Virus record (IMG/VR): IMGVR_UViG_3300010157_000250
Span: 1 to 23,922 of that record
Direction: 5' to 3' (one strand)
Origin: a virus
DNA: 23,922 nucleotides
Below, piece by piece: positions 652-23,912 of this stretch. The position numbers and the translations under genes are program-made. Positions within the stretch are counted from its first letter, which is position 1. Every line of letters begins with the position of its first letter. Under the pieces are notes generated by a model that saw only the letters and a program-made list of their open reading frames with translations, was not told the DNA's origin and ran no database searches.

Positions 652-2814
652 TTAATATGCGAATGCCCAACCGCCTGATTTGTAAACGTACACACCCTCT
701 ACAACGTCCGTTTGATAAACATGAAGCCCAACTGCAGGAGAACTAATAGCAAGCCTTTGTGTTGATGTCATACGTGGGAAAGGGTTACTACCTTGTGTTG
801 TACTGTTTACATCTAACTTAGAAGATGCGTTAGGTGTTGAGGTTCCAATACCCACATTACATGAAGAGCCAAGTATAACGGAGTTGCTTTGACTTACCAC
901 TACGTTCGCACCTATACCCGTTGCATTGGCGATGCCCGTTGCTGCGCTCACATCACCAAAAGCCCCTACAATCGTAATATCTCTGCCTGTGGTGTTGGTA
1001 GAACAGGCATTCCTTCCAATAAAAACATTCTCGTATCCTGTGGTATTATTTTGACCGGCCGACCTGCCTATCATGGCATTGTCATCACCGGTTGAGCTAT
1101 ATCCTGAGCGATAGCCCACATACACCGCATTAGATGTTGTACCTCCCGAAGCGTTGGATACGCATTCCGCACCTATTAAAGTGGTCTGTGCGCCCGTTGT
1201 TATATTAATTCCTGAACTTGTACCGATGGCAATATTGTTACTACCCGTTGTTACTGATGATAGCGCATTGTATCCGATAGCACTATTATTACTCCCTGTA
1301 TTTGTTGTTACCACACCCGCACCTGCCGAGCGACCTATATACATATTAGAGGATCCTAAAGAATAGTTGCCCGCCCTGTATCCAATGAAACATGAATTAT
1401 CAGCTGCGCTATTATATCCCGCCTCTGCCCCAATGAATACATTTTGAGCCTTAGTTGCTATACTTGCATTTGCTTGCGCAGCAAAAGCACCTATATAGGT
1501 GTTATTTCCTGCTGTGGTATTTTGATACCCCGCACCCCATCCAATCATTACATTTTCATCGCCTGACGTTGTGCTATATCCTGCATTTCGACCTACATAA
1601 GTTCCTAGCGTACTGTTAGTGTTAATTGCTTGCCCTGCATTATATCCCCATGTGGTATTGCCCAATCCTTGTGAGTGCAAAGAAAATAATGTGCCGGCAT
1701 AATATTCATCACCGTTACCCCGGAATGAATAAAGGTCGGCATTGTCAGCACTGTTTCTCATGGTTAGCCCTATTGAACTACTTAATGCACCGGGCATTTT
1801 TACCGTTACCGTTCCCGTTGGGCTTGATGTTCCACCTACGCTTAATCTTGTGTTGCTGTTATCCCATATTAAGTTAGCCGAACCCGCAAATGCACTTGAT
1901 GAGTTGTATTGAATTTGTGTAGTTGAACCGCCCGGTGTTCCACCACCGCCACCCGAAGTATTCAGCGTGTCATTTGAAAATGAAAGCCCTGTACCTAGTT
2001 TTATTTCCTGCGCTACGCCGGTAGTGCCGCTATATCTTCCTAAAATTCTAGTACCTGATATCGAGGTGCTCAAAGTCTTTGTTGTTCCGGTATAAGTCAA
2101 AGGGGACGTAGCAGTAAGAGAAGTACTATCTAATTTCCGGTTAAAGGTGTTCCAGTCCGAGGTGCTTATATACCCGGGTTGAGAAGATGTTGCCACCTGA
2201 ATAGAAAAAGCCCCGGTTCCGCTATTATATGAAAGTGGGGACGAAGCGGATAAGGACGAAAGCCCAATTCCGCCAAGTCCTGATAATGTGTAAGTAGGAA
2301 TATTAAGGTTTGGCTTTGAGTATGTGGCCGATCCGCTCGACCCTGTTGTGGTTAGGTGAATTGAATCTACTTTAGCGTCGAACCTTATCCAGTCTGCGGA
2401 AGTTAAAGCCCCTCTTTTGCTTCCCCCGGCATCAGGGATATTGAAAGTATGAGTAGTCCCGCTTGATGAGATATTGAAGTTTGTTCCTGAATTGCCCGTT
2501 GCAAAGGTCTGTGTTGAACCGGTCAGCCCGTTTAGCGAAGTAATACCCGCACCGGGAATCTTCCATGTGCTATCTACGGGGTGAAAAACGTACAGTCTTA
2601 GATTGCAGCTATCCCAATACATTGCTGCCATCTTTGTTTTACCTGCGTGCCTTAATGAAGCAACGCCCGAAGGTGTGCCGCATCCCGTAGGAATAAACAA
2701 AGCACTATCAAATGAAGCCCATTGATTATCGTACCGGCCACTTATCTTAGTCCACGATTGTCCAAAAGAACTAAGTGTGAAAAGTAAAAGTAATATTGAA
2801 AGGTATTTTTTCAT
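652..2814 (-). CDS. large fibre/adhesin with Sec signal peptide and YadA-head-like repeats
   Basis: A 720-residue protein. It begins with a Sec signal peptide (MKK, core LSILLLLFTLS, SFGQ with cleavage near residue 19). Residues 90-300 contain two versions of a fibre module ending in a DW...F..K motif (about 141-148 and 220-227), then a Gly-rich linker near 287-297. About 16 repeats with a (V/I)G core follow from 385 to 655 (for example YVGRNAGYSTTSGDENVMIG), with a mostly 19-28-residue period, as in the left-handed beta-roll head of trimeric autotransporters. The C-terminus has GIGTSTP, a KLDV motif and a GVYVYKSGGW tip seen in Bacteroidota surface and fibre proteins. It is probably the main receptor-binding fibre, though the signal peptide is unexplained. 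Confidence 0.85.
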   Translation of the reverse strand: MKKYLSILLLLFTLSSFGQSWTKISGRYDNQWASFDSALFIPTGCGTPSGVASLRHAGKTKMAAMYWDSCNLRLYVFHPVDSTWKIPGAGITSLNGLTGSTQTFATGNSGTNFNISSSGTTHTFNIPDAGGSKRGALTSADWIRFDAKVDSIHLTTTGSSGSATYSKPNLNIPTYTLSGLGGIGLSSLSASSPLSYNSGTGAFSIQVATSSQPGYISTSDWNTFNRKLDSTSLTATSPLTYTGTTKTLSTSISGTRILGRYSGTTGVAQEIKLGTGLSFSNDTLNTSGGGGGTPGGSTTQIQYNSSSAFAGSANLIWDNSNTRLSVGGTSSPTGTVTVKMPGALSSSIGLTMRNSADNADLYSFRGNGDEYYAGTLFSLHSQGLGNTTWGYNAGQAINTNSTLGTYVGRNAGYSTTSGDENVMIGWGAGYQNTTAGNNTYIGAFAAQANASIATKAQNVFIGAEAGYNSAADNSCFIGYRAGNYSLGSSNMYIGRSAGAGVVTTNTGSNNSAIGYNALSSVTTGSNNIAIGTSSGINITTGAQTTLIGAECVSNASGGTTSNAVYVGYRSGYSSTGDDNAMIGRSAGQNNTTGYENVFIGRNACSTNTTGRDITIVGAFGDVSAATGIANATGIGANVVVSQSNSVILGSSCNVGIGTSTPNASSKLDVNSTTQGSNPFPRMTSTQRLAISSPAVGLHVYQTDVVEGVYVYKSGGWAFAY

Positions 2815-20143: not shown

Positions 20144-21526
20144 CTAATAACCATGTTTTGATACATTTTTCCCTGTCATTGGGTTAGTTACTATACCGCC
20201 TCGCTGATATTCCGCATATTCTTGGGCGAAAGCAAAGCAAAACAGATAATCGGTCAAATCTGTAAAGTGGCCATACTTTTGATACCGCACCCCGTTCACC
20301 GTTTCCATTTCCTTGTTTTTCGTGCCGTCTGCCGCCTCTTTTAGATTGATGAAATCATTGATGGCCTTCTTACACGAATCATTTATCATAAATGTTATAC
20401 CGCCCCTTCCCGTTTCTAAAAAGGTGTTAATCCACATACCCCTTGCCACCACACTAGGGTTAGATGAAGCCACCCTGCGCTGTGGTAAAAACTCTCTCAA
20501 TTCTTCCATCACAAGCCTAAAAAAATCGTACCCCTTCTCAATCTTGGTATCATCCTTTTGCGCTGTACTATCACCATAGACGAACATTCCTGATTTATGC
20601 CCCATATACTTGCGCTTGATTTCCGAACAAACCGCCTTGATAGTGTTGTTTGGATTCACCCCGGCTATCTCATCAATCATGCGAACCGCTTTCCCCTCGA
20701 TCTGAAATATGCCTACCGGTAAGTATGGATTGACGTTATCGTCCCAACTGATATGTAATGGCAATTCAGGATTGTATTCGCAATGCCCTACGTGCTTATC
20801 CAATTCAAAGCATTTATAAAACTCGCCGCCTGTTTTTAGGCTTATATCCCATTCACCTTCAACAAACACCTTGTACTGATACTTGGGAAGCATCTTAAGG
20901 CTTTCAATGTATTCTTGGGGGATATGTGGGTTATCTTCTATTCGTGCCTGTAAGTAGGCCACGCCCTTAGGCAAGGTTCCTGCTTTCCACCTGTCATAAA
21001 ATCGATCCTTTGTCCATCCCTGATTAGGGTTACAACTCATTAATATCTTTGTTGGGCAACCGGGCGAACCGAACCACGAACCGGCACGCTCGATAATCTT
21101 ATTAAAGGTTTCTTCGTTAATCTCATTCACCTCATCCACAAAAGCCCCGTTTATCTCCAAGCCCCGGAACCTATTTAACTCTTTATCCGTGTCGTAACTT
21201 TCGGCCATAAATATAATCTCGCTGCCGTTGTTCCAAGTAATTGTTTGCGTTTGCTGATTAAAATGCCTGACGTAGGCTTGAAGCCCTTTGCCTAAAAAGT
21301 ACTCGTTAAAAGTTTTTAGTAAGGTGCGCTTTAAGGTTGGCATACTTTCCCGAAGCATTAACCAACGGCTATTAGGATATTGAAAGCAGAATGTAACTAT
21401 CTCTAGGCATCCCCAATAAGACTTAGCACCTCGAATAGCGCCACCATAAAGCACGATATTGTTTTCTTTTAGTAACCGGTGTGCCTCCCGCTGCTTTGGT
21501 GTTGGGGTGAATTTAAGCTGTTCCAT
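20144..21526 (-). CDS. terL: terminase large subunit
   Basis: A 460-residue packaging motor with ATPase and nuclease halves. The Walker A-like motif is GGAIRGAKS (28-36), Walker B is AFVDEVNE (128-135), and the coupling motif is SCNPN (164-168). In the nuclease half, acidic residues expected of an RNase H-like fold appear in SWDDN (260-264) and YGDS (317-320), with further aspartates near the C-terminus (FTDLTDYL). Length and motif order fit TerL of Mu-like and PBSX-like phages. It acts at the portal, pumping and cutting DNA. It overlaps the small terminase by 14 nt and is followed by the only sizeable gap in the packaging region. Confidence 0.95.
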   Translation of the reverse strand: MEQLKFTPTPKQREAHRLLKENNIVLYGGAIRGAKSYWGCLEIVTFCFQYPNSRWLMLRESMPTLKRTLLKTFNEYFLGKGLQAYVRHFNQQTQTITWNNGSEIIFMAESYDTDKELNRFRGLEINGAFVDEVNEINEETFNKIIERAGSWFGSPGCPTKILMSCNPNQGWTKDRFYDRWKAGTLPKGVAYLQARIEDNPHIPQEYIESLKMLPKYQYKVFVEGEWDISLKTGGEFYKCFELDKHVGHCEYNPELPLHISWDDNVNPYLPVGIFQIEGKAVRMIDEIAGVNPNNTIKAVCSEIKRKYMGHKSGMFVYGDSTAQKDDTKIEKGYDFFRLVMEELREFLPQRRVASSNPSVVARGMWINTFLETGRGGITFMINDSCKKAINDFINLKEAADGTKNKEMETVNGVRYQKYGHFTDLTDYLFCFAFAQEYAEYQRGGIVTNPMTGKNVSKHGY

Positions 21527-22049
21527 TCCAGTCTATAATGACGGGCTTGTCTATTGTGATTTCTTGCTTTGACTTAACCGGCGCATAATCCCCGTCCATT
21601 TTATTTAGTTCGGCGTAAAGGTCTTTCATGGTTTTTCGCAGGTAGGCTTTGGTTTCTGCATTCATAATCTTATTAACCACCTGCAATTTACCCCCCAATA
21701 CCACATAATCCTCTACTATTGCCCTGTCAAGGTCGGCTTGGATGCCATTAATTTGGTCTTGTATGTGCCGCTTTTTTTCAATTTTCGATTTTAAGCCTGT
21801 TTTAAGCTGTTCTATTGTGTTCGCCTCCACTTGTTCACTAGTACTCTTCTCCTTCATTTCTTGCCACTCTACGATAGCCTTATCGTAGGCTTTCAAGCAT
21901 CGTTCCTTCATAATGCTTTTTGAGGTTCGCAAAAGTTCGTATAAGTTCGTTTTGCCCGTGTTGCCTTTTTCAAACATGGCAATAAGCCAATTATGGAGTT
22001 GAGCGTCGCTAATAGGTGTTTTCGCTGTTAACTTACTTGCTTTGGGCAT
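21513..22049 (-). CDS. terS: terminase small subunit (probable)
   Basis: A 178-residue protein directly upstream of the large terminase and overlapping it by 14 nt. This is the standard place for the small subunit, which binds the packaging site and delivers DNA to TerL. The N-terminal part (ISDAQLHNWLIAMFEKGNTGKTNLYELL) looks like a helical DNA-binding region. A long charged helix follows (KSKIEKKRHIQDQINGIQADLD), as in the oligomerisation domain of small terminases. The C-terminus ends in DWNGTA. I chose the ATG at 22049. A GTG at 22085 adds 12 residues and overlaps the methyltransferase stop as TAGTG, but it lies inside the tandem repeat. Assignment rests mostly on position, since small subunits diverge strongly. 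Confidence 0.75.
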   Translation of the reverse strand: MPKASKLTAKTPISDAQLHNWLIAMFEKGNTGKTNLYELLRTSKSIMKERCLKAYDKAIVEWQEMKEKSTSEQVEANTIEQLKTGLKSKIEKKRHIQDQINGIQADLDRAIVEDYVVLGGKLQVVNKIMNAETKAYLRKTMKDLYAELNKMDGDYAPVKSKQEITIDKPVIIDWNGTA

Positions 22050-22080
22050 CGGTGTTTTGGATATACTTGTCAATTTCTTT

Positions 22081-22160
22081 ATCACTAAGCTGCTGCCCGT
22101 TTCTCTTTATCACTAAGCTGCTGCCCGTTTCTCTTTATCACTAAGCTGCTGCCCGTTTCT
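22081..22160. repeat. 28-bp tandem repeat, 2.9 copies, at the methyltransferase / small terminase junction
   Basis: Three direct copies start at 22081, 22109 and 22137. The first two are identical over all 28 bases, and the third matches for 24 before it diverges. Each copy contains ctaagctgctgcccgttt. Because 28 is not a multiple of 3, each copy is read in a different frame by the methyltransferase gene on the minus strand. The end of the first copy also supplies the TAGTG that forms the methyltransferase stop and a GTG start candidate for the small terminase. Confidence 0.97.
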
Positions 22161-23308
22161 TTTCTATGTTTTATAAATCGAGCAACTATTACATCACAGT
22201 ACTTGGGGTCGAACTCGACTAAATATGCTTTCCTGCCCATTTGATCACACGCAATCATTGTGGTGCCACTACCACCAAAACCATCTGCCACAATATCTCC
22301 TTGTTTGCTGCTGTTCCCTATTTGGTAGGCAAATAGCCGGATGGGCTTCATTGTTGGGTGTTCAGCATTTCTGCTTGGTCTGTCAAAATTTAAAATAGTT
22401 GTTTGTTTTCTATCTGAATACCATCCGTGAGCCGCTCCCTCTTTCCAACCATATAAGCAAGGTTCGTGTTTCCATTGGTAATCCTGTCTTCCCAATACCA
22501 TTGAATTTTTTACCCAAATCAAACATTGCTTAACCATAATACCGGCATCTTTCATCGCTTGGCGAAAATTAGCACCTTCCGAATCGGCGTGCCAAACATA
22601 CCAAGCACCGCCTGCTTTTGTATAGCTTCCAAGTGCTGTGTAAAAATCATATAAAAACTGATAAAATGATTTATCGTCCATATTGTCGTTTGCAATCTTT
22701 AGTTTTTCTTTTGTGCCTCCCTCATAAGCAACATTATAAGGTGGGTCTGTAACCACTAAATCTGCTAAATGTTCCCCAAACAATGTTTTAAAAGTATCTG
22801 TTTGAGTACTATCACCACATAAAAGTTTATGGTCGTTTATTTCGTACAAATCACCTAATACAGTAATAGGTTCTTTTGGTGCAACACCGTTAAAATCATC
22901 TTCGATGGCTTCTGGTTCTTGCTCGGCTACTTCCACACCCCACTCAACACAAACAGCTGCACCAACTTCCGCCTCAATTAACTCGGCATCAAATACAATG
23001 TTGGCTTTAGCTGTTGCATTATCGGCCAAAGCCATTTCTCTACCTTCGGGAGAATCTAAATCTATATCTGTTCGTTTGACGGCGATAATTTTAGTACCGT
23101 CTGATTCAATTATCTGCACGTCCTCCATTCCGATTGCCGCAGCATTTTCCACGGACTTATTCCCTGCGATGATTCGATTATTTTTGTCTATCAAAATGGA
23201 ACGTCCCGCCCCAAATTTCCTAAATGATTTTTCAATCAATGAATTACCAAACTCTGAACCCTTGTTAAAGTTCTTGTCATCCGGTATTAAGTCTTTTAGC
23301 TTTGCCAT
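22085..23308 (-). CDS. ParB-like domain / beta-class DNA adenine methyltransferase fusion
   Basis: A 407-residue DNA methyltransferase. The N-terminal part (about 1-130) resembles the ParB-like nuclease fold often fused to phage methylases (RSILIDKNNRIIAGNKSVENA, about 36-56, then LADNATAKANI). The catalytic domain carries motif IV as TDPPYN (187-192) and the SAM-binding motif I as FGGSGTT (344-350), preceded by HPTMKP. Motif IV before motif I marks the beta class, and DPPY suggests adenine-N6 methylation. No restriction enzyme is beside it, so it is probably an orphan methylase, perhaps protecting phage DNA or marking it for packaging. The last 20 or so residues are encoded by three tandem copies of a 28-bp repeat read in three different frames (ETGSSLVIK, RNGQQLSDK, EKRAAA). 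The observed C-terminus is therefore set by repeat copy number. The TAG stop overlaps a possible GTG start of the next gene. Confidence 0.9.
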   Translation of the reverse strand: MAKLKDLIPDDKNFNKGSEFGNSLIEKSFRKFGAGRSILIDKNNRIIAGNKSVENAAAIGMEDVQIIESDGTKIIAVKRTDIDLDSPEGREMALADNATAKANIVFDAELIEAEVGAAVCVEWGVEVAEQEPEAIEDDFNGVAPKEPITVLGDLYEINDHKLLCGDSTQTDTFKTLFGEHLADLVVTDPPYNVAYEGGTKEKLKIANDNMDDKSFYQFLYDFYTALGSYTKAGGAWYVWHADSEGANFRQAMKDAGIMVKQCLIWVKNSMVLGRQDYQWKHEPCLYGWKEGAAHGWYSDRKQTTILNFDRPSRNAEHPTMKPIRLFAYQIGNSSKQGDIVADGFGGSGTTMIACDQMGRKAYLVEFDPKYCDVIVARFIKHRKETGSSLVIKRNGQQLSDKEKRAAA

Positions 23309-23636: not shown

Positions 23637-23912
23637 TTATTTATGAATTCTACTTAAACTAAATCCTCGTTCCTTTGCCTCCTTTGGGTGTAATTCAATC
23701 CAAACATGGCAATTCCAACACACGGCTAAAAAGTACTCGCTATTGCAAAGCAAATCATTTGTCCTGCCTTTTTTATGGTGAATCTCGTCTGCCACTTTTA
23801 AACATTCCTGTAAATTCGCCTCACATACCGGGTGCGCTTCCAAGTATTCCAACCTTACTTTGGAGTAGTCCCTATTCTGCTGCGCTCTTTTCTTGCTTAC
23901 CTTGCGAATCAT
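23637..23912 (-). CDS. HNH endonuclease
   Basis: This 91-residue protein looks like a small phage HNH nuclease. Cys30 is followed by the core EIHHKKGR (residues 43-50), with His45/His46 as the probable metal-binding and catalytic histidines. Asn57 follows in a CNSEY stretch, and a second half CWNCHVWIELHP (65-76) contains a CxxCH pair and a final histidine. The N-terminus is basic (KKRAQQNR). In many cos-type phages an HNH protein beside the terminase genes takes part in packaging-site cleavage; here the terminase genes lie about 1.5 kb downstream, so that role is plausible but inferred. The ATG sits 10 nt from the window edge and the protein looks complete. It could instead be a free-standing homing-type nuclease. 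Confidence 0.8.
   Translation of the reverse strand: MIRKVSKKRAQQNRDYSKVRLEYLEAHPVCEANLQECLKVADEIHHKKGRTNDLLCNSEYFLAVCWNCHVWIELHPKEAKERGFSLSRIHK

Follow-up and report, generated by a model that had tools for sequence, protein, structure and literature searches.

A 28-bp tandem repeat read in successive frames at a phage methyltransferase–terminase junction occurs in two or three copies

Repeat-driven changes of reading frame in bacterial methyltransferases are well known. The specificity gene hsdS of EcoR124, a type I system, reportedly occurs with two or three copies of a short repeat, which lies in frame and alters DNA specificity. Direct repeats also occur near terminase genes, at cosB and pac. 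In bacterial phasevarions, slippage of repeats in type I and type III methyltransferases shifts the reading frame and turns expression on or off (PMC12707154). The hsdM and hsdS genes of EcoKI overlap and are translationally coupled, and removal of the frameshift between them, in an engineered construct, gives a functional fusion (PMC3510504). A search of the literature found no repeat-driven frame change at a phage methyltransferase–terminase junction.

The DNA analysed here (the window, 23,922 nucleotides) is itself an IMG/VR virus record, IMGVR_UViG_3300010157_000250. On its minus strand a methyltransferase gene is followed by terS and then by the large terminase gene (Table 1). Like hsdS of EcoR124, the methyltransferase gene is a DNA-modification gene with natural two-copy and three-copy repeat forms, but its repeat is 28 bp long and frame-shifting, and its effect is confined to the C-terminal tail of the protein. 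As in the phasevarion methyltransferases, a frame-shifting repeat lies inside the gene; unlike those, the gene belongs to a phage, none of the observed forms leaves the core enzyme incomplete, and switching is only a candidate. As in EcoKI, the methyltransferase gene overlaps the next gene in another frame, so that a frame change could fuse or uncouple the two, but the partner here is a terminase rather than a specificity subunit, and no repeat is described for EcoKI. As at cosB and pac, direct repeats lie beside terS, but the array goes with the methyltransferase and not with one kind of TerS, and any site is putative only.

Table 1. Features at the methyltransferase–terS junction, in window coordinates
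Feature	Position	Strand	Description
DNA methyltransferase gene, three-copy form (407 aa)	22085..23308	-	N6_N4_Mtase core, ParB-like N-terminus; PF01555 E 1.5e-23; phrog_498 E 1.2e-126
Fringe AGAAAC	22155..22160	-	just ahead of copy 1; matches the 3' end of the unit
Repeat copy 1, first read	22127..22154	-	frame a; encodes ...GSSLVIKRN
Repeat copy 2	22099..22126	-	frame b; encodes GQQLSDKEK; supplies the nearly invariant G of K-x-N-G (K392, N394, G395)
Repeat copy 3 (23/28 nt)	22076..22098	-	frame c; encodes RAAA, then TAG-TGA-TAA
Two-copy-frame tail DNA (EIDKYIQNTDAQSK + stop)	22033..22075	-	overlaps the terS start; in the three-copy form not translated with the methyltransferase
terS, likely small terminase, from ATG	21513..22049	-	ahead of the large terminase gene (20144-21526); related to the lineage B protein (31%)

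The methyltransferase is of the N6/N4 DNA type – D188-PPY191 and G346-SGTT350 (the DPPY and FGGSGTT motifs) are invariant in the alignment. The protein encoded downstream in lineage B, described below, matches the phrog_51 small terminase. Elsewhere in the window, a 91-aa ORF at 23637–23912 (minus strand) has a C...IHHKKGR...CWNCH pattern and looks HNH-nuclease-like by eye, with no Pfam match; a 720-aa ORF at 652–2814 (minus strand), with many IGxxAGxxN-type repeats like those of trimeric adhesin heads, is probably a tail-fibre protein, also judged by eye.

Three tandem copies of a 28-bp unit at the 3' end of the methyltransferase gene had been noted in the initial annotation, and Tandem Repeats Finder confirmed them at 22076–22160 (period 28, 3.04 copies, 100% matches, score 170). 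This is the sole strong tandem repeat of the window, all other arrays scoring at most 38, and 0 matches to its two whole units on the minus strand are expected by chance (100 shuffles). The copies are perfect. Since 28 is 1 modulo 3, each unit shifts the reading frame. In frame a, copy 1 encodes residues that match the SLVIKRNG-type end of homologues without the repeat. The fringe ahead of copy 1 is longer in lineages B and C (AAGAGAAAC and AAAGCGGAAC).

The frames read earlier for one, two and three copies were all correct on translation. With three copies, the methyltransferase ends ...SDKEKRAAA at a TAG, 35 nt ahead of the terS ATG at 22049; with two, it ends ...SDKEIDKYIQNTDAQSK, with its stop 17 nt inside terS; with one, it reads into terS in frame. 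A single copy would do the same in all four lineages and would lose RNG (lineages A, C and D) or NG (lineage B). Four, five or six copies give the same protein as three, because the third copy is always read in frame with TAG-TGA-TAA. The array therefore has three states (one, two, and three or more) and no cycle of three, and a modulo-3 switch was rejected, since three, four, five and six copies share one end. A third copy replaces the last 10–18 residues by 5 and moves the stop 35–47 nt from terS, and copies beyond the third would merely widen the gap between the two genes. In the observed forms copy number alters only the tail and the position of the stop – none of them disturbs the catalytic core or the conserved K-x-N-G end.

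When IMG/VR was scanned by pattern, ten further contigs proved to carry the array and nothing else did; in all of them it sits at the 3' terminus of a methyltransferase gene of this kind and comprises at least two copies. The array-bearing contigs fall into four diverged lineages. Lineage A consists of the window and L099, with three copies; L099 shares 10,979 bases with the window at 100% identity and on that basis is the same or nearly the same virus. Lineage B (L100; methyltransferase 84% identical to A in amino acids) has three copies. Lineage C (60% to A) has three copies in L101, L103 and L104 and two in L096, L097 and L102, and lineage D (L105; 70% to C) has two, the second decayed at its 3' side; in these four two-copy contigs it is copy 3 that is missing. 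The three-copy and two-copy strains of lineage C are ca. 94% identical over the shared methyltransferase–terS region, and within each strain overlapping contig sequences share at least 99.9% identity and copy number is the same. Comparison of relatives at the junction thus shows that copy number varies in nature, being two or three even between strains this close, and that the C-termini differ. One contig, L098, begins inside the array; its positions 1–60 comprise two copies and a further 10 bases assignable to flank or unit alike, which leaves its copy number undecidable, and it is otherwise 100% identical to the lineage C three-copy strain.

A fused methyltransferase–terS state had also been proposed, but the one-copy form that would produce it was not found in the IMG/VR scans. 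No IMG/VR contig carries the 17-base core in single copy, and GSSLVIKRNG in any codons (AGY serines) is confined there to the same ten contigs. An exact-pattern scan of 84,980 cellular genomes gave 0 matches, with no one-copy form either.

A single origin of the array with purely vertical descent of the methyltransferase was rejected, because grouping the repeat-bearing cores into a single clade fails the AU test (p 0.017). Downstream, two unrelated kinds of gene occur, a small-terminase type in lineages A and B and DUF5681 in C and D. Given both observations, either the array and the 3' end were exchanged between methyltransferases or gene bodies were swapped around the array. On the sequences compared, the array belongs to the methyltransferase end and not to one kind of TerS. 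A recent transfer of the 3' end was rejected as the reason why the repeat is invariant – divergence in the 35 codons immediately preceding it mostly equals that of the rest of the gene (B and D are closer). The L168, L169 and L170 proteins are 85% identical to the lineage C methyltransferase over the first 136 residues only, and beyond that part the L168 ORF reads as something unrelated, a module exchanged downstream of the ParB-like N-terminus. In the lineage C three-copy strain, a 235-aa ORF with an HNH-like end (HIDHIIPLSS...; L103, 6540–7247) lies after terS.

The initial annotation took two copies to be the most natural ancestral state, and several features of the sequences support the two-copy form as native. 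Residues K392, N394 and G395, an end that requires copies 1 and 2, are at least 90% conserved over 40 relatives, most of them without the repeat. The two-copy tail is homologous across the lineages (EIDKYIQNT, EINKYIENT, E(A/V)EAFIENT and SDTQKFTENT). Between A and B, both of which have three copies, it diverges like coding DNA – 7 of the 9 differences are at codon position 3 of the two-copy frame and 6 of the 9 codons differ silently (p 0.008, in a short, post hoc test over nine codons; p ~0.025 after allowing for three frames). A longer TerS starting from the GTG at 22085 is not supported, because these third-position differences would be second-position differences, always coding changes, in the GTG frame. 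The two-copy form also spaces the genes as repeat-less relatives do: the distance from methyltransferase stop to terS is -17, -32, +4 and +4 nt, inside the range of 97 such relatives, 95 of which lie between -34 and +34 and only two of which reach +35. With three copies it is +35 or +47 nt. AlphaFold models show a pair of strands and then a helix at the C-terminal end, and confidence is good for both forms; the predicted helix covers residues 400–406 of the window protein and 399–409 of a two-copy protein (L110).

Copies match one another within each lineage (those of lineage D being partly decayed), and each lineage has its own unit – an A to C change is present in 3/3 copies of B, and a change of AGA to CGG in 3/3 and 2/2 copies of C. 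Five base changes distinguish the lineages, and every one is silent in the frame of copy 1, compared with 23% of random changes (p 0.0006). Because the copies match within a lineage and differ between lineages only at sites silent in copy 1, the array is homogenised, most likely by slippage. The first six codons of copy 1 (TGSSLV) are identical in the four lineages, against 27 of 165 (16%) comparable flank columns (p ~2e-5, assuming independent columns), and NGQQLSD of copy 2 is likewise identical. Variation in the copy-1 codons is limited to the stretch after SD, where residues of the second frame are unconstrained. The core of the repeat is invariant in all copies of the four lineages, while the flanks are 65–77% identical. 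Homogenisation together with two-frame coding can account for this invariant island, because every core position, as derived by hand from the sequence, is non-silent in at least one of the two. The second-frame constraint is drawn from the four lineages alone, since QQLSD is not conserved outside repeat-bearing genes.

The array is probably a tolerated, slipping, homogenised minisatellite with a floor of two copies, a reading favoured here over a selected toggle or a DNA-level site. Copy 1, read as GSSLVIKRN, and copy 2, read in the next frame as GQQLSDKE, jointly encode the conserved SLVIKRNG-type end of the family. Copies would be gained and lost by replication slippage or by recombination between perfect copies. 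The one-copy form would be purged by selection, because its K-x-N-G end is broken and the gene runs into terS; a third copy would be tolerated, because it changes only a dispensable tail and the tightness of translational coupling between methyltransferase and terS. Gain and loss between two and three copies would keep the copies identical, so that the DNA would be constrained in two frames at once and stay nearly unchanged while its flanks diverge. Against mere tolerance, two-copy forms are no more common than three-copy forms, which look fixed in their strains, and tolerance by itself need not lead to such fixation.

Alternatively, the array could be selected as a contingency (phase-variation) locus. 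One DNA word in two successive frames would still build the methyltransferase end, but slippage between two copies and three or more would toggle the tail and the coupling of the methylation and packaging genes – a long-tailed methyltransferase coupled tightly to terS, or a short-tailed one set apart. Both forms are present in close relatives, and four lineages have retained the array. In the three-copy state the gene ends at a distinct stop, which in lineages A and C is a run of three stop codons, and the spacing to terS falls outside that of nearly all relatives; moreover, the tail has been kept as coding sequence although A and B lack it in their three-copy form. The initial annotation had proposed a copy-number switch between separate, overlapping and fused proteins. 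The part of it that stands is that two and three copies exist and that tail and stop change with them; the IMG/VR scans revealed no fused form, and the core enzyme is the same in both states. Copy number is also constant among identical contigs of each strain (three of the lineage C three-copy strain, three of its two-copy strain and two of lineage A), some of which may be re-assemblies of the same libraries and so not independent samples, and ca. 240 other methyltransferase 3' ends examined do without the array. A regulated switch is thus possible but unproven, since the assemblies show a stable copy number within strains and no function is known to change with it, and a selected toggle is considered rather unlikely.

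A site acting at the level of DNA is less likely still. The 20-base core ACGGGCAGCAGCTTAGTGAT, at 28 bp spacing, would be bound by a protein, in terminase recognition of cos/pac type or in autoregulation by the methyltransferase, and its sequence would be fixed for that reason. The core adjoins terS and occurs only there in the records searched. However, dual-frame coding accounts for its invariance equally well, and the data do not separate the two. The same repeat also precedes two unrelated downstream genes rather than one kind of TerS, and it is missing from close relatives in which the genes are ordered alike.

Programmed ribosomal frameshifting in the three-copy form, by which the conserved tail would be reached in a frame that this form does not read, is very improbable – RNA structure is not beyond chance (z -0.17 in A and -0.31 in B), there is no Rfam match, and two-copy relatives make the tail without it. 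Least credible is the suggestion that the third copy is an assembly error, already nearly refuted: tandem arrays can mis-assemble and L098 starts inside the array, but three lineages, each with its own unit, have the three-copy array, as do several contigs assembled separately (though some records may be re-assemblies of the same libraries), and 85 bp is short relative to usual sequencing reads.

The array offers a clean example from nature of a single DNA word kept constant by two-frame reading and by homogenisation. Such an array bears on whether phages use slipping loci as switches.
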